64,000 bases of DNA from Aeromonas aquatica (GTDB lineage: Bacteria > Pseudomonadota > Gammaproteobacteria > Enterobacterales > Aeromonadaceae), in contig NZ_JRGL01000012.1 of assembly GCF_000764655.1 (NCBI RefSeq), forward strand, positions 62,001-126,000. Reading direction: 5' to 3'. Shown here one piece after another: positions 5,922 through 49,093 of this stretch. The notes under the pieces were generated by a model. It worked only from the letters and a program-made list of their open reading frames with translations. It had not been told where the DNA came from and searched no databases. The number at the start of each line of letters is the position of its first letter. Positions within the stretch are counted from its first letter, which is position 1. A program made the position numbers and the translations under genes.

Positions 5922-6662
5922 ATGGCAGGTCACAGCAAATGGGCCAACATCAAACACCGCAAGGCGGCGCAAGACGCCAAGCGTGGCAAGATCTTCACCA
6001 AGTTGATCCGCGAGATCACCACCTCAGCCCGGATCGGTGACGCGGATCCGGCCAACAACCCGCGCCTGCGCGCGGCGGTGACCGCCGCCCTGACCAGCAA
6101 CATGACCCGCGAAACCATCAACCGCGCCATCCAGCGTGGCGCCGGTGGTGGCGATGGCGAGCAGCTCGAGACCATCGTCTATGAAGGCTATGGCCCGGCG
6201 GGCTCCGCCGTGATGGTGGAGTGCCTGACCGACAACCGTAACCGTACCGTGGCCGAAGTGCGTCATGCCTTCAGCAAGAGCGGCGGCAACCTGGGCACCG
6301 ACGGTTCCGTGGCCTACCTGTTCAGCAAGAAAGGGCTGCTGACCTTCGTCGGCGTGGATGAAGATGCGCTGATGGATGCGGCGCTGGAAGCCGGTGCCGA
6401 TGACGTGGTCACCGAAGAGGATGGCTCCATCGAGGTCTACACCACCCCGAACGATTTCGGTACCGTGCTGGACGCGCTGGAAGCCGCTGGCTTCAAGCCC
6501 GAGAACGCCGAAGTGACCATGATCCCGTCCACCGAAGCCGAGCTGGATGCAGAGACTGCCCCCAAGCTGATGCGTCTCATCGACATGCTCGAAGACCTGG
6601 ACGACGTGCAGGAGGTGTATCACAACGGCTCCATCTCCGACGAAGTTGCGGCAACGCTCTAA
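5922..6662 (+). CDS. yebC: YebC/PmpR family protein
   Basis: The 246-residue product starts with the family signature [18 protein letters not shown]. The family is known both as a DNA-binding transcriptional regulator group and, more recently, as factors that ease ribosome stalling at proline-rich stretches. I cannot say which role dominates here. The gene follows aspS, as in E. coli, with a GGAGAG ribosome site. Unlike the E. coli order, ruvC does not follow: a strong terminator closes the unit at 6723-6749. Confidence 0.93.
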
Positions 6663-6971: not shown

Positions 6972-8591
6972 ATGCGTCTCACTCTGGGAGTGATGAAGGT
7001 CAATCTGTTGCTGGTGCTGTTGTTTGCACTGGTCTTCAACTGGCCCATCTTCCTGCACTTTTACCGTATTCTCACGGCCCTTGAGCACGTCAAGGCGGGC
7101 TTTGCCCTCTCGATCCCCTTCGTGCTGATGGCGGCGCTCAATGCGGTCTTCCTGCCATTCACCTTCAAGTATCTGCTCAAGCCGTTCTTCATCCTCTTGA
7201 TCATGACCGGCTCCATCGCCAGCTACGCCATGCTGAAATACGGCATCATCTTCGACGTGGGTATGGTGCAGAACATCATCGAGACCAACAGCGGGGAGGC
7301 GACCTCCTACCTCAATGGCTCTGTCATGCTCTGGTTCCTGCTGACCGCGGTGCTGCCGGTGCTGTGCCTGTTGGCGATCAAGATTGAATACCCGAGTTCC
7401 TGGCTCAAGGGGCTTGGCCTGCGCCTCGGGGGCATCGCCCTCTCCTTGCTGTTCCTGGTGGGGGTCGCCGCTCTCTATTATCAGGATTACGCCTCGGTCG
7501 GTCGCAACAACCACAGCATCGTCAAAGAGATAGTGCCTGCCAACTATGTGCGCGGCGTCTATCGCTACGCCCGGGACATCGTCTTCGCGACGCCCATCCC
7601 TTACGAGCCGATCGGTACCGATGCCAAGGTGGTGAGCAAGAGCGACAAACCGACCCTGATGTTTCTGGTGGTCGGCGAGACGGCGCGCAGCAAGAACTAC
7701 TCTCTCAACGGCTACAAGAAAGAGACCAACGGCTTTACCAGCAAGGAGCAGGAGCTGGTCTCCTTCAAGGATGTGCGCTCCTGTGGCACCGCCACGGCGG
7801 TCTCGGTGCCCTGCATGTTCTCCAACCTGACTCGCCATGAATACGATGAGACCCTGGCCAAGTCACGGGACGGTCTGCTGGACGTGCTCCAGCACGCCGG
7901 TGTCTCCGTGCTGTGGAAGGAGAACGACGGCGGCTGCAAGGGGGTGTGCAACAACGTGCCCACCATCGAGGTCGAGCCCAAGCAGTTCCCTCAATATTGC
8001 GAGGGGGACTCCTGCTATGACGAGGTGCTGTTGCAGGGGCTGGATCAGCAAATTACCGACATGAAGAGCGGTAACAAGGTGGTGGCCTTCCACCTGATGG
8101 GCAGCCACGGTCCGACCTATTACCGCCGCTACCCGACAGAGGATCGCTTCTTTACCCCCGACTGCCCGCGCAGCGACATCGAGAACTGCAGCAACGAGGA
8201 GCTGGTCAACACCTATGACAACACTATCCGCTACACCGACAAGGTGCTGTCCCAGCTCATCGAGAAGCTCAAGACCCTGGAGAGCCAGTACAACGTGGGG
8301 CTGGTCTATCTGTCGGATCACGGCGAATCCTTAGGGGCCATGGGGCTCTATCTGCACGGCACCCCCTACAAGTTCGCGCCGGATGATCAGACCCGGGTGC
8401 CGTTGCTGACCTGGTTCTCCCCCCAGTTGCAAAGCGACCGTCAACTGAACCAGGATTGCCTGCGTCAGGAGGCGGGCAGCAAGCGCTTCTCTCACGACAA
8501 CCTGTTCCACTCCATGCTCGGCATCATGGATGTGCAGACCAAGGTGTACGACGGAGCGCTGGATATGTTCAAACCCTGCCGCGGGGGTTGA
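6972..8591 (+). CDS. eptA: Lipid A phosphoethanolamine transferase, EptA/MCR-3-like
   Basis: The 539-residue inner-membrane enzyme transfers phosphoethanolamine to lipid A, which lowers envelope negative charge and can reduce binding of cationic peptides such as polymyxins. Five N-terminal membrane segments (about residues 10-170) precede a periplasmic sulfatase-like domain. Expected catalytic features are present: Glu236 in VVGETAR, nucleophile Thr275 in CGTATAVSVPC, and DHGESLG plus HGTPY near the C-terminus. Blocks such as YYQDYASVGRNN, EIVPANYV and APDDQTRVP closely recall the MCR-3 group. No insertion sequence flanks it, so it appears to be a resident gene. The promoter has a PmrA box. 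The last 99 bases of the gene are repeated twice more downstream. Confidence 0.93.
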   Translation: MRLTLGVMKVNLLLVLLFALVFNWPIFLHFYRILTALEHVKAGFALSIPFVLMAALNAVFLPFTFKYLLKPFFILLIMTGSIASYAMLKYGIIFDVGMVQNIIETNSGEATSYLNGSVMLWFLLTAVLPVLCLLAIKIEYPSSWLKGLGLRLGGIALSLLFLVGVAALYYQDYASVGRNNHSIVKEIVPANYVRGVYRYARDIVFATPIPYEPIGTDAKVVSKSDKPTLMFLVVGETARSKNYSLNGYKKETNGFTSKEQELVSFKDVRSCGTATAVSVPCMFSNLTRHEYDETLAKSRDGLLDVLQHAGVSVLWKENDGGCKGVCNNVPTIEVEPKQFPQYCEGDSCYDEVLLQGLDQQITDMKSGNKVVAFHLMGSHGPTYYRRYPTEDRFFTPDCPRSDIENCSNEELVNTYDNTIRYTDKVLSQLIEKLKTLESQYNVGLVYLSDHGESLGAMGLYLHGTPYKFAPDDQTRVPLLTWFSPQLQSDRQLNQDCLRQEAGSKRFSHDNLFHSMLGIMDVQTKVYDGALDMFKPCRGG

Positions 8592-8827
8592 GTCTGAGCT
8601 GCCCCCACGACAACCTGTTCCACCCTGTGTCTGGGGATCATGGATGTGCAGACCAAGGTGTACGACGGAGCGCTGGATATGTTCAAACCCTGCCGCGGGG
8701 GTTGAGTCTGAGCTGCTCCCACGACAACCTGTTCCACCCTGTGTCTGGGGATCATGGATGTGCAGACCAAGGTGTACGACGGAGCGCTGGATATGTTCAA
8801 ACCCTGCCGCGGGGGTTGAGTCTGAGC
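8493..8827 (+). repeat. Three tandem copies of the eptA 3' end
   Basis: Copy 1 (8493-8605) is the true end of eptA with its stop codon. Copies 2 (8606-8719) and 3 (8720 to about 8827) repeat about 113-114 bases, including the stop and a few bases beyond. About 75 bases from the ATGGATGTG block to the stop are identical in all three. Copies 2 and 3 share a different, one-base-longer segment just after CAACCTGTTCCAC, so they would be out of frame relative to the parent gene. The eptA terminator follows the third copy. Confidence 0.95.
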
Positions 8828-8842
8828 GGGTATCCACAGATA

Positions 8843-8874
8843 AAAATGGCAGCCGATGGGCTGCCATTTTTATT
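8843..8874 (+). terminator. Rho-independent terminator after the eptA repeats
   Basis: The stem AAAATGGCAGCC/GGCTGCCATTTT with a GATG loop is followed by a T-rich tail. Confidence 0.85.
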
Positions 8875-9110
8875 GGAAGAAGGAAGCTGGGATTTTTCCG
8901 TCCTGATGACTCGCAAGCCTGATAAGTAGCAGTCGAACCGGGTTGATAAGCGTGCGGCCTTTGGGTCTATGGACCCGATAAGATACACGGCAACCAGGAG
9001 GCGGTGATTTTGTTGTCGGGAGACAAGAGGGGAGGGCGTTTGTTGGTACCTGATGAGATGATTTGACCATTAAATCAACATCTGAAAGACACTTCATGAT
9101 GTTAAACAGT

Positions 9111-9136
9111 AAAAAGACAGCCTAGGCTGCCTTTTT
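9111..9136. terminator. Bidirectional terminator, mainly for nagBAC
   Basis: AAAAAGACAGCC pairs with GGCTGCCTTTTT around a TA centre. T-runs on both strands would serve nagC on the minus strand and read-through from eptA on the plus strand. Confidence 0.7.
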
Positions 9137-9158
9137 CATTGGGTCGGAAAGGAGAAAA

Positions 9159-10373
9159 CTACTTCTGCTCCATGATGATCTGCAACAGATCCCCTTCCAG
9201 CAGGGAGCGCTTGACCAGGGCGAAGCCGCCGATGGTGGGCTGGTTCTGGAAGCGTGCCTTCACGATGGGCAGGCCACGGTGGAAGCTCGGCAGGGATTGA
9301 TGCTCGACGCAGCGACGGATGGCCGGGATCAGGATCTCTTCCGCGGCGGTGATTTCACCCGCGATCAGCACCTTCTGCGGGTTGAACAGGTTGACCGTGA
9401 TGGCGATGGCCCGGCCCAGATGTTCTCCCACGTTCTCGATCACGCTGCGAGCGAGTTCGTCTCCCGCCACGGCGGCCTTGCACACCTCCTGAATGGTGAT
9501 GTGCTTCTCCTGCAAGCTGCTCAGATGGCCACGGCTGATGAGCTCCTTGACCTTGTCGACAATGGCCTCGTTGGAGGCGATGGTCTCCAGGCAGCCGAAG
9601 TTGCCGCAGTGGCAGCGTTTGCCGAGCGGCTCGACCTGGATGTGGCCTATCTCGCCGACGTTGCGGTTCTGACCGAGGAACACCTTGCCCTTGGTGATGA
9701 TGCCGGAGCCGGTGCCCTGATGCACGCTCACCAGAATGGAGTCCATGCAGTCACGGGACTCGCCGAAGAAGTGTTCGGCCAGTGCCAGAGAGCGGGTGTC
9801 GTTGCCCACGTAGCAGGGCAGGTTGAAATGGTGCTCCAGCAGCTTGGCCAGGCCTAAGTTGCGGATCTGGTAGGTCGGGGTGTAGATGACCATGCCGGAT
9901 TCCGGATTGACCAGACCCGGCATGGTGAGCGCGACACTGATGAGGTTGCGGCTGCGCTCGCGATTGGCATCGATGAAGGCGCCAATTTCCCGCAGCAGCA
10001 TGTCGACCACGGGTTGCTGCTCGATCTCGGTCACCTCGGTGATGTGCTGATCGAGCTCCTTGCCGTCGAGATCATAGAGACTCAGCTGCAGGTAACCGCG
10101 GCCAAGCTTGGCAGAGACAAACTGAAAGCGATGCTTGATGGTGGTCAGGGAGATGGCGCGCCGCCCACCGGTCGAGGCCTGCGGCGAGGTCTCCCTGATC
10201 AGCCCATGCTCGATCAGTTGCCGGGTGATCTTGGTCACGCTGGCCGGGGCCAGCTGACTCAGTTCGGCAATCTTGACGCGAGAGATGGGCCCTTGCAGGT
10301 CAATGAGCCGATACACGACCGCACTGTTCACCTGCTTGATAAGATCTACGTTTGCTATTTGTCCGCCAGTCAT
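9159..10373 (-). CDS. nagC: N-acetylglucosamine repressor NagC (ROK family)
   Basis: The 404-residue transcription factor represses nag genes and is relieved by GlcNAc-6-phosphate. An N-terminal winged helix-turn-helix (SQLAPASVTKITRQLIEHGLI, about residues 39-59) is followed by a ROK sugar-kinase-like domain. The zinc motif is present: His244 and Cys254, Cys256 and Cys261 in CHCGNFGC. The start is the ATG at 10373 (MTGGQIANVDLIKQ), matching E. coli NagC; the frame continues upstream over the nagA end without similarity. The nagA stop is only four bases away, so nagB-nagA-nagC is one operon. Its operators are probably the two sites in the nagB-nagE region. Confidence 0.95.
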   Translation of the reverse strand: MTGGQIANVDLIKQVNSAVVYRLIDLQGPISRVKIAELSQLAPASVTKITRQLIEHGLIRETSPQASTGGRRAISLTTIKHRFQFVSAKLGRGYLQLSLYDLDGKELDQHITEVTEIEQQPVVDMLLREIGAFIDANRERSRNLISVALTMPGLVNPESGMVIYTPTYQIRNLGLAKLLEHHFNLPCYVGNDTRSLALAEHFFGESRDCMDSILVSVHQGTGSGIITKGKVFLGQNRNVGEIGHIQVEPLGKRCHCGNFGCLETIASNEAIVDKVKELISRGHLSSLQEKHITIQEVCKAAVAGDELARSVIENVGEHLGRAIAITVNLFNPQKVLIAGEITAAEEILIPAIRRCVEHQSLPSFHRGLPIVKARFQNQPTIGGFALVKRSLLEGDLLQIIMEQK

Positions 10374-10377
10374 AGTG

Positions 10378-11523
10378 TCACTGTTGTGTGTAGTGTCCGT
10401 TAACCACGGTCCCGCAGACCGTGAAGGCCTGATCAAAGACGGTGAGGTTGGCAATTTTTCCGACCTGGATACTACCGAGACGTGAGTCCCATCCAATGGC
10501 GCGAGCGGGGTAAAGGGTGGCCATTCTCAGTGCTTCATCGAGCGGTAATCCGACCTGTTTGACCAGATTCTCCACCCCTTCAATCATGGTGAGGGCGGAA
10601 CCGCCGAGTGTACCATTCTCATCGACGCACTGACCATCGCGGAAATAGACGGTTGCGCCACAAAAATCAAACTTCTCAAAGCCTTCCGGCGCTCCGGCCG
10701 CGGCGGTGGCATCAGTGACCAGCACCAGTCGCTCGCCAAGGATCTTGTGCGCCAGGCGGACGGTGGCCCAGTGCACGTGATGGCCATCGACGATGATGCC
10801 GGCATGGACATCCTTGCGATCATAGATGGCACCGACCACCCCGGGTTCGCGCCCGTTCAGGGTCGGCGTCATGGCATTGTAGAGGTGGGTGGCGAAGCGG
10901 ATGCCGTCATCAAACCCGGCCATGGCCTGCTCATAGCTGGCGGCGGTGTGACCGGCGGAGACCAGGATCCCCGCCTCGACCAGGCGATGGATGTGCTCCG
11001 GCTTGTTGCGCTCCGGTGCCAGGGTGATCTTGGCGATGGCATCGCTGTTGTCACAGAAGAAGTCGATCATCTCGTCGGCCGGCTGGCGGATCTGCGCGGC
11101 CGGGTGGATGCCCTTGCGCTTGAGGTTGGTATAAGGCCCTTCCAGATGGACACCGAGCACCTCGTTGGGGTGGGCGGCCATATGGTCGCGGGTGACCGCC
11201 ACCGCCTGCTTCATGTCCGCATCCGGACTGGTGATCAGGGTCGGCAGGAAGCTGGTGGTACCGGACTTCAGGTTGGCCGCCTGCATGATGGCCAGGGTCT
11301 CGGTGGTGATGTGACCATTGAACATGACGCCACCGCAGCCGTTGAGCTGGACGTCGATGAAGCCGGCGCTCAGGTTGGCGCCGTGCAGATCATGTCGTTC
11401 GACTCCGGCAGGCAGTTCGGCCTCGCGTACGATGGCGACAATGCTGTCGCCCTCGATCAGTACACCGTGGCCGGTCAGCACGCAGCTGCCGGTATAGATA
11501 GTGCAATTAGTCAGTGCGTACAT
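10378..11523 (-). CDS. nagA: N-acetylglucosamine-6-phosphate deacetylase
   Basis: The 381-residue cytoplasmic amidohydrolase (382 in E. coli) removes acetate from GlcNAc-6-P to give glucosamine-6-P for NagB. Family hallmarks are the substrate loop [11 protein letters not shown], the metal ligand Glu in LGVHLEGPY, His in SAGHTAA and HLYNAM, and the catalytic Asp in [10 protein letters not shown]. The start ATG at 11523 lies nine bases after the nagB stop. The product also makes the NagC inducer level depend on flux, since it consumes GlcNAc-6-P. Confidence 0.96.
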
Positions 11524-42999: not shown

Positions 43000-44724
43000 A
43001 TGCTTCGCCGTGGGCTGGCTCCGTGGGGGCTCGCCCTCTGCCTGTTGCTGCTGGTGACGCCGGCCATGGCGGCCAAGCTGACCTATCAGATCAAGGGGGT
43101 CAAAGGAGAGCAGAAGGATAACGTCGAAGCCTACCTCAATGCCCTGCCCGTCTATCAGGAGCGCCAGTATCGCACCGCCCGCGCCAAGATCACCGAGAGC
43201 GTGCAGCAAGCCCTGCAGGTCTACGGCTACTACCAGCCCAAGATCACCCTGAGCCGCGACAAGAAGGCCCCCGCCAAGGTGGTGGTCGCCATAGAGAGGG
43301 GCAAGCCCGTGCTCATCTCGCGCCTCGACATCCTGCTGGAAGGGGATGCGGGCAGTGACGAGGTCTACAGCGAGCTGCTGGACAAGCTGCCCCTCAAGGA
43401 GGGGGATCCCCTCAACCATGGCAAGTACGAATCCATCAAGGCGGATCTCGGCAGCCTGGGGCTGGCTCGCGGCTACTTTGACGCCAAGATCAGCAAGAGC
43501 CAGGTCAAGGTCTTCCCGGAGCAGGGCAAGGCCGAGATCTTCATCCTGTTCCGCTCAGGCCCCCGCTATCACTTCGGCGAGATCCACTACGATGCGACGC
43601 CGGAGGCGCTGCGCCTCATCCGGCCGCTGATCAACATCAAGAGCGGCGATCCCTATCTGGCGATCCGCCTCGCCGAGATGTCGCAGGATGTCTCCTCCAC
43701 CAAGCTGTTCAAGCAGGTGGACATCAAGCCCATGATAAGCCAGGCCGAGGGCAACCGGGTGCCGGTGCAGGTGACGCTCGCCAATCGGGTCGATCACGAG
43801 ATCGAGACCGGTATCGGCTATGCCACCGACGTCGGACCGCGCTTGAGCGCCACCTGGGAGAAGCCCTGGGTCAACCGCTACGGGCACAGCCTCTCCAGTA
43901 CCGCCAAGATCTCGGCCCCGGAGGCGGAGCTCAGCTTCGATTACCAGATCCCGGTGGGCAACCCGCTGCGGGACTATTACTCCCTGCAGGCGGGTTACCA
44001 GTACACCGACAACAACGATACCCGCTCCGATCTGGCCACCTTCGGCGTGCACCGCTGGACGCGGCGGCCGGAGAGCTGGGACAGAGACGTCTTCATCCGG
44101 TTGGAGAACGAGCGCTACGTGCAGGGTAACGACGAGGGGAACAGCCTGCTGCTGATCCCGGGTGTCTCCTGGTCGAGGCTGCGGGTGCGTGGCGGTCTGG
44201 TGCCGGATTGGGGGGATCGCCAACAACTGACGATGGAGTTTTCCAGTCCCTACTGGGGCTCTGACATCAACTTCATGCGGGTGTGGGGGCGCAGCAAGTG
44301 GCTGCGGACCCTGGGGGAGGATCACCGCTTCCTGATGCGAGTCGAGCAGGGGGCCATCATCGGCGACGAGTTCTCCCTGGTGCCCCCTTCCCTGCGTTTC
44401 TTCACCGGTGGCGATCAGACCATCCGTGGCTACGGCTATGAGACCGTCTCCCCGAAGGGGGACGATGGCAAGCTCACCGGCGGCCGTTACACCAGCGTGG
44501 GCAGCCTGGAGTACAACTACCGCTTCAGCGAGAAGTGGCTTGGCGCTTTGTTCGTGGATGGCGGTACCGCCACCAACGATTACACCGAGGCCTGGAAGAT
44601 AGGCACCGGGGTCGGGGTGCGCTGGGTGACCCCCATCGGCCAGGTCAGGCTGGATCTGGCGGTGGGGATCTCCGAGGAAGACAAGCCGCTGCGGCTGCAC
44701 TTCGCGCTGGGGCCTGAACTATGA
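43000..44724 (+). CDS. tamA: Translocation and assembly module outer-membrane protein TamA
   Basis: The 574-residue Omp85 family protein (577 in E. coli) works with TamB in delivering proteins and lipids to the outer membrane. A signal peptide (MLRRGLAPWGLALCLLLLVTPAMA) precedes three POTRA domains (about residues 25-260), then the 16-stranded barrel with the family loop RFFTGGDQTIRGYGYE (the Omp85 RGY motif) and C-terminal HFALGPEL. I placed the start at the ATG at 43000 because it begins the signal peptide; the frame opens earlier, at 42931. tamB follows after an unusual 186-base gap containing duplicated sequence. Confidence 0.94.
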   Translation: MLRRGLAPWGLALCLLLLVTPAMAAKLTYQIKGVKGEQKDNVEAYLNALPVYQERQYRTARAKITESVQQALQVYGYYQPKITLSRDKKAPAKVVVAIERGKPVLISRLDILLEGDAGSDEVYSELLDKLPLKEGDPLNHGKYESIKADLGSLGLARGYFDAKISKSQVKVFPEQGKAEIFILFRSGPRYHFGEIHYDATPEALRLIRPLINIKSGDPYLAIRLAEMSQDVSSTKLFKQVDIKPMISQAEGNRVPVQVTLANRVDHEIETGIGYATDVGPRLSATWEKPWVNRYGHSLSSTAKISAPEAELSFDYQIPVGNPLRDYYSLQAGYQYTDNNDTRSDLATFGVHRWTRRPESWDRDVFIRLENERYVQGNDEGNSLLLIPGVSWSRLRVRGGLVPDWGDRQQLTMEFSSPYWGSDINFMRVWGRSKWLRTLGEDHRFLMRVEQGAIIGDEFSLVPPSLRFFTGGDQTIRGYGYETVSPKGDDGKLTGGRYTSVGSLEYNYRFSEKWLGALFVDGGTATNDYTEAWKIGTGVGVRWVTPIGQVRLDLAVGISEEDKPLRLHFALGPEL

Positions 44725-44940
44725 GGCAGCTAAATACGCTATTTATTAAAAACTCAGTGATATCCTGCGCTGAAAATATCGCTACTTTCAATTCAATTAT
44801 GCTGGTTCGGCCGCTGCGGCTGCATTTCTCGCTGGGGTCTGCATCGTGATCTGGATAAAACGTATTTTCTTGTGGCCGACGAGTTTCTCCTCTTCGCAGG
44901 GGGTGGCACCGTGATCTGGATAAAACGCATCTTCCTGTGG
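44685..44940 (+). repeat. Duplicated tamA-end/tamB-start junction
   Basis: The tamA 3' end (from about 44685) recurs in slightly altered form at about 44809-44840. The tamB 5' end (from 44911) recurs at 44846-44875. In the extra copy the tamA-like end runs into TCGTGA, so its stop overlaps the GTG of the tamB-like start, presumably the ancestral arrangement. The tamB-like remnant encodes MIWIKRIFLW and then drifts to a stop after 22 codons. About 85 AT-rich bases separate the true tamA stop from the extra copy. Confidence 0.85.
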
Positions 44941-48877: not shown

Positions 48878-48962
48878 TGGTGGAGGGAGAAGGATTCGAA
48901 CCTTCGAAGGCAGAGCCGTCAGATTTACAGTCTGATCCCTTTGGCCGCTCGGGAACCCCTCC
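48878..48962 (-). tRNA. tRNA-Tyr (anticodon GTA)
   Basis: This 85-base gene has a CCA end encoded at 48878-48880, GTA anticodon at 48926-48928 (reverse strand), long variable arm as expected for type II bacterial tRNA-Tyr, and TTCGAATCC T-loop. It is the distal of two nearly identical copies separated by 46 bases and transcribed together. Confidence 0.96.
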
Positions 48963-49008: not shown

Positions 49009-49093
49009 TGGTGGAGGGAGAAGGATTCGAACCTTCGAAGGCAGAGCCGTCAGATTTACAGTCTGATCCCTTTGGCCGCTCGGGAACCCCTCC
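49009..49093 (-). tRNA. tRNA-Tyr (anticodon GTA), first copy
   Basis: This 85-base gene carries the GTA anticodon at 49057-49059 and an encoded CCA at 49009-49011. It is the promoter-proximal copy. Its sequence appears identical to the second copy in the mature region. Confidence 0.96.

Follow-up and report, generated by a model that had tools for sequence, protein, structure and literature searches.

Why would a gene be followed by further copies of its own 3′ end, each with a stop codon? The question is raised by the window, a 64,000-nucleotide stretch of the Aeromonas aquatica genome (contig NZ_JRGL01000012.1), in which a phosphoethanolamine–lipid A transferase gene (eptA) leads into a three-copy array (Table 1). 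We refer to such downstream copies as tails, and asked whether they are peculiar to this locus, how they arise, and whether they do anything.

The three-copy array behind eptA

The original prediction held that the 3′ end of eptA is present three times in tandem, each time with its stop; the array has exactly this form, with copy starts spaced by 113 and 114 nt. About 75 identical bases had been claimed; the three copies share an uninterrupted stretch of at most 77 identical nt, running from ATCATGG to TTGAGTCTGAGC and containing the stop. The two extra copies were also correctly said to share a variant block: they read CCTGTGTCTGGGG where the gene end reads TCCATGCTCGGC, and because this block is one base longer than the gene's, both copies are frameshifted. 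Tandem Repeats Finder (TRF) returns 8493-8827 with a period of 114, 2.9 copies, and a score of 621, the highest of the five arrays in the window. The gene-end/tail pair scores 96 against a threshold of 28 (permuted gene-end/downstream pairs of the same genome, 0 of 478). The spacers after copies 1 and 2 are one base apart and the flank after copy 3 is unlike both, as expected after unequal exchange between a gene and its tail.

Table 1. Features of the eptA locus and the dnaB-derived element discussed in the text
Feature	Position	Strand	Evidence
yebC, upstream neighbor of eptA; without a tail in the window genome (score 11)	5922..6662	+	
Phosphoethanolamine–lipid A transferase gene (eptA/mcr-3/mcr-7-like), 539 aa	6972..8591	+	ORF; NCBIfam NF028537, 619.6 bits (cut-off 500)
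Copy 1: last 99 nt of eptA including the stop, plus 14-nt spacer 8592-8605	8493..8605	+	
Copy 2: first tail, 114 nt, own stop, spacer 8706-8719	8606..8719	+	
Variant block of copy 2, CCTGTGTCTGGGG, +1 nt relative to gene 8511-8522; same in copy 3 at 8738-8750	8624..8636	+	
Copy 3: second tail; first 107 nt identical to copy 2	8720..8827	+	
Perfect 15-bp inverted repeat, A- and T-runs within the stem	8840..8873	.	Inverted-repeat search
nagC, convergent downstream neighbor of eptA	9159..10496	-	NCBIfam NF047937, 667.9 bits (cut-off 650)
dnaB-tail core	L048:2413-2583 and orthologous gaps in L126-L155		

The encoded protein meets the cut-off of the general phosphoethanolamine–lipid A transferase model and falls below the curated cut-offs for the MCR-3-related (824.9 of 1075) and MCR-7 (898.2 of 1250) families. 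The array also creates ORFs of 102-178 aa in alternative frames. The inverted repeat beyond it is a probable bidirectional terminator of eptA and nagC; a scan of 8400-9200 for promoter and consensus terminator patterns scored nothing, this repeat included. Downstream of eptA in several species (L015, L020, L023, L030), a palindrome-like element, CGTCCGATTACGCC...GGCTAATCGAACCTACG, lies ahead of the terminator. Rfam, run on five sources including the window, gave tRNAs alone at gathering scores; a near-identical tRNA gene pair lies at 48881-48962 and 49012-49093 of the window, ∼50 nt apart, and a different contig of this genome has three such copies (L049:5050-5371). Elsewhere in the window, the end of a gene stopping at 44724 (44685-44744) is repeated 125 nt downstream, at 44810-44867, with 77% identity, below the census score.

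eptA tails across Aeromonas

The eptA orthologue was compared in 30 Aeromonas genomes, a full tail being a downstream copy that scores at least 44 (next best, 22). Nine genomes carry one or two such tails (the window genome G000, and G011, G012, G014, G020, G022, G023, G026, and G028) and 21 have none, and copy number is variable within Aeromonas caviae; a copy number fixed in all relatives, which the original prediction had named as counting against it, is thus not what was found. Within A. caviae the comparison is of two genomes: strain KAM479, a circular record, has the eptA gene end and two tails (score 90), and CECT 838 (G006) keeps only a short relic (score 18). In the nine genomes, the copies start at nearly the same codon of the gene. 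The window genome is a draft of 171 contigs, which leaves room for misassembly; diverged orthologous tails nevertheless occur in independent assemblies, including the single-contig genomes G014 and G023 and the circular KAM479 record, so that an assembly artefact is unlikely in the extreme. A search of a plasmid collection matched 14 records, one of them across most of the query; this is NZ_AP026896.1 (L035, L370-L372), a circular A. caviae record of 4.94 Mb filed as a plasmid, which has eptA and the dnaB-tail core described below and looks like a chromosome.

The two parts of the eptA tails have different relationships. When the 3′ 67 nt of each tail were compared with all 30 eptA gene ends, the genome's own gene was the best match in seven of nine (not in G022 or G026). 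For the 5′ block, tails of other species score above every one of the 30 gene ends in eight of nine, clearly in six and narrowly in G014 (22 versus 19) and G011 (17 versus 16). In the exception, G000, the block scores 15 against other tails and 20 against gene ends; it has therefore drifted or is of another source. A block resembling GTTGCCCCGCACC, with three extra nucleotides that are missing from the gene, is present in seven of the nine tails (all except G000 and G011). The block had been suspected of deriving from another eptA/mcr-3 gene, which these affinities with other tails do not bear out. As a candidate source, the eptA paralogue of G000 (82% identical) was rejected: it has neither a tail (score 12) nor the block. 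An old duplication whose 3′ part has been rewritten repeatedly from the resident gene would explain most of the eptA patterns. Nothing at eptA suggests a function for the tail, which is patchy and mostly tracks its gene.

A genus-wide class of gene tails

For a census, genes were called with a pooled codon model, and the 3′-terminal 130 nt of every gene, extended by 5 nt, was compared with the 350 nt that follow, at a score of at least 28; genes shorter than 240 nt, or lying less than 450 nt from the end of a stretch, were excluded. Tails were found at 30 of 1232 genes in an Aeromonas sample that is partly non-random (the G000 contigs were picked as carriers of eptA or its paralogue, and six of the G023 stretches lie beside eptA) and at 4 of 833 control genes (Fisher p 3e-4). 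At a score of at least 35 the counts are 27 of 1232 and 0 of 833 (Fisher p 1e-6), and removal of two eptA genes and one yebC gene leaves 27 of 1229 and 24 of 1229 at the two scores. The controls comprise five genomes of the order (0/264), eighteen of the class (4/265), and 21 eptA-homologue loci of other genera (0/304), the last not independent because five are Buttiauxella; three of the four control hits are one locus (L309), and all four score 28-33. Permuted gene-end/downstream pairs gave 0 in every census set, and annotated coding sequences of Escherichia coli K-12 gave 0 of 122. An earlier count had found 16/579 in Aeromonas versus 0/228, and eptA-region loci gave 13/479, all at yebC or eptA, versus 0/281.

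The excess in Aeromonas is real in this sample and very uneven between species: at a score of at least 28, G000 has 12/246, G023 4/167, G009 5/159, G014 1/139, G015 1/69, G035 0/54, G036 2/94, and twenty other Aeromonas genomes together 5/304. A. caviae KAM479, a later addition outside the census sums, had tails at 0 of 110 genes in 150 kb. With the codon-model caller, gene starts compared with the sequence upstream gave 7/1232 matches in Aeromonas and 5/833 in controls, so that 3′ matches outnumber 5′ matches in Aeromonas by 30 to 7. With a crude longest-ORF caller, some of whose calls are on the wrong strand (e.g., L094), there was little 3′ preference: 22/1146 versus 4/875 for 3′ ends and 18/1146 versus 4/875 for 5′ ends (Aeromonas versus controls). 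Tails are a genus-wide class, found at ∼2% of sampled Aeromonas genes (about one in forty), and the observation made at one locus thereby widens to a feature of the genus; within a literature search that did not extend to supplements or subscription journals, no title or abstract described them.

Tails recur at orthologous loci of several unrelated genes: at yebC in 8 of 33 Aeromonas genomes, at alr (alanine racemase) in 6 of 30, at a threonine/leucine-exporter-like gene in 9 of 30, at an RluA-family gene in 3 of 29 (29 of 30 loci used), and in 5 of 21 at a gene that we take to be DsbA-like (no NCBIfam hit). A heme ABC transporter ATPase gene has its end in three copies, and a seven-copy array at L040:14560-15300 alternates two spacers. 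Clean tandem duplications are present at L047:15143-16558, where a terminator-like hairpin is repeated as well, and at L055, with a 33-nt unit. Tandem copies of a gene's 5′ end, including the start codon region, at L040:6618-6862 are the rarer mirror case. Summed over 30 tails, codon positions 1/2/3 account for 87/63/175 differences from the gene, and successive thirds for 135/104/86. The stop is kept in all 24 of the 30 tails whose alignment reaches its position; of the six aligned short of it, two have no stop. In four tails the differences are almost purely synonymous (L338, 15:1; L094, 13:2; alr, 11:2; L293, 5:0), a pattern not expected if a new duplicate merely decays, and one that calls for a recombination step. 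Copies within a genome are more alike than orthologues between species for the eptA 3′ part (7/9), clearly so for none of the six alr tails, and for just three of the nine exporter tails.

Unlike the eptA tail, a tail of dnaB does point to function. A 33-nt core from the last codons of dnaB lies 72-85 nt before the alr start in 30 of 30 Aeromonas genomes, with a single variable site (A/C). Its mean pairwise difference is 0.016, compared with 0.094 for the homologous stretch of dnaB and 0.292 for fourfold sites; conservation of the core exceeds that of the gene end from which it was copied, which implies function there. It differs from the dnaB gene at one site in every genome, which makes it improbable that ongoing conversion from dnaB maintains its constancy; the most economical reading is purifying selection. 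The dnaB tail is probably a conserved control element by now, and from its position we would guess that the core regulates alr.

Other signs of function are mixed. Among G000, G011, and G017 the exporter tail has 1-5 differences in 106 positions, versus 14-27 of 80-84 fourfold sites; between G022 and G023 it is not slow (7/105 versus 4/89). A hairpin with a CACAA loop is present in the yebC tails (L053, L057, L060, L061, L063, L079, L082, L085), and its stem differs from species to species. In all 12 species folded, which were picked for a visible hairpin, the tail hairpin is more stable than its counterpart in the gene, although the stretch searched was longer for the tail (70 versus 57 nt); its covariation over six rows is not above shuffles (107/500). 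Folded eptA, alr, and exporter tails have no hairpin in common, and the hairpin, confined to yebC, was rejected as a general account.

Coding potential was also considered. In some species the DsbA-like tails (L338:6457-6620, L349, L352, L357, L359) contain an in-frame start codon and a ribosome-site-like stretch, with GGAGG ahead of the start in G004 and G036, and such a tail could encode a separate C-terminal fragment of ∼50 aa. Three more tails (L341 and two in L344) open with ATGA, in which stop and start overlap, and with a stretch resembling a ribosome site. As a general account of tails the mini-gene was rejected because a start of this kind is missing from most of the 30 sampled tails.

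Origin of the tails and likeness to known systems

We consider it probable that the class as a whole arises by tandem duplication across the stop, persists because copy 1 stays intact, and is later remodeled by unequal exchange with the parent gene. At birth, slippage or unequal exchange would duplicate a segment that starts within the gene and ends beyond its stop. The duplicate would be tolerated because copy 1 leaves the protein intact: translation would end at the first stop, and the remainder would become 3′ UTR. Crossover within the long identical 3′ part, a step that the comparison between genomes supports, would then give gene, tail block joined to the gene's 3′ part, and tail; after a later contraction, the remaining tail would be old at its 5′ edge and renewed in its 3′ part. 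By appearance, the two matching tails in the window may represent the expanded stage. Gene end and tail can also stem from different species, as the comparison supports, and the foreign best matches described below, together with the near-synonymous differences, indicate that between-species recombination uncoupled some tails from their genes. Most tails would decay or vanish, and a few may be co-opted, as the dnaB core is predicted to have been, perhaps for alr expression. Several observations stand against this account: in G022 and G026 the best match of the eptA tail is not the resident gene, and the G000 block is not nearest to other tails; species are uneven, four control hits reach at least 28, and the crude caller's 3′ preference is weak; four tails are near-synonymous, and two of the six short-aligned tails lack a stop. 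Of the origins put forward in the original prediction, slippage is supported in part, insofar as the form of the array fits tandem duplication followed by unequal exchange; the proposed recombination target is likewise partly supported, by exchange within species (the 3′ part of the eptA tail, 7/9) and between species (alr and the DsbA-like gene).

A rival origin is import from a relative. Incoming DNA would join by homology on its left and illegitimately inside the resident 3′ end on its right, so that the old 3′ end remains as the tail; such homology-facilitated illegitimate recombination would leave a new gene end and donor spacer before the resident 3′ end. The DsbA-like gene of G023 has this appearance, since its tail and flank agree with the end of the G022 gene at 98/118 (78 for its own gene), whereas the end and spacer of the gene itself look like those of other species. 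For the alr tail of G000, too, gene ends of other species are nearer (55/82) than its own gene (37), and several tail spacers do not recur past the last copy. The clean tandem duplications at L047 and L055 speak against import, and in most species the 3′ part of the eptA tail matches its own gene, unlike the expected pairing of a donor end with a resident tail. Where the same junction is found in several species, ordinary homologous transfer of an existing tail is enough. We regard import scars as an unlikely origin of the class.

It is less probable still that tails in general are selected 3′ UTR elements whose RNA or DNA acts in mRNA stability, termination, or regulation of the next gene. 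The constancy of the dnaB core in all 30 genomes, the slow exporter tail of three genomes, and the yebC hairpin favor such a role; the absence of eptA tails from 21 of 30 genomes, the exporter tail of G022 and G023, and the preselected species, unequal folding windows, and unremarkable covariation behind the yebC result weigh against it. Integrative elements that target gene 3′ ends restore the gene end, including the stop. The copies do hold the stop and restore the gene end, in line with the original proposal of a scar of repeated integration (att-site duplication). Successive copies are separated by 14-nt spacers alone, with no intervening element, and many unrelated genes with unrelated sequences carry tails; integration is accordingly very improbable. 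More speculatively, and with considerable doubt, a process particular to Aeromonas might copy gene 3′ ends with their stops into 3′ UTRs, creating a reservoir for swapping C-termini and gene ends between species and a source of regulatory elements such as the dnaB tail before alr.

Tails shared by many species, one of them frozen in all examined genomes, would form a natural series at base resolution for following the birth of a duplication, unequal exchange, between-species recombination, and co-option. In practice, tails can mislead short-read assembly, primers for the 3′ ends of eptA/mcr-like genes, and annotation.

Several known systems invite comparison. REP-type elements are hairpins in 3′ UTRs, and the yebC tails similarly place a hairpin between stop and terminator; tails, however, are made from the host gene's own sequence, and folded tails of other genes share no hairpins. 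Diversity-generating retroelements work with template/variable repeat pairs, and the eptA locus resembles them in its ∼110-nt repeat pair at a gene 3′ end, but the block differences are mostly at non-adenine bases and include an insertion. Microdiversity, in the form of variable segments in E. coli and other species, is both intragenic and intergenic and has partly been put down to illegitimate recombination (PMC2884548). The likeness lies in short between-strain variation close to genes, possibly formed by homology-assisted illegitimate recombination; tandem copies of gene 3′ ends are not what the relevant part of that work describes (PMC2884548). The eptA array consists of contiguous direct copies of resident sequence, the mark of tandem duplication. 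Tandem duplication with concerted evolution by unequal exchange is well known, and the tails resemble it in their head-to-tail copies, homogenized center, drifting edge, and variable copy number; they differ from it in that the unit is a gene 3′ end with its stop, recurring on many genes and in excess in one genus.
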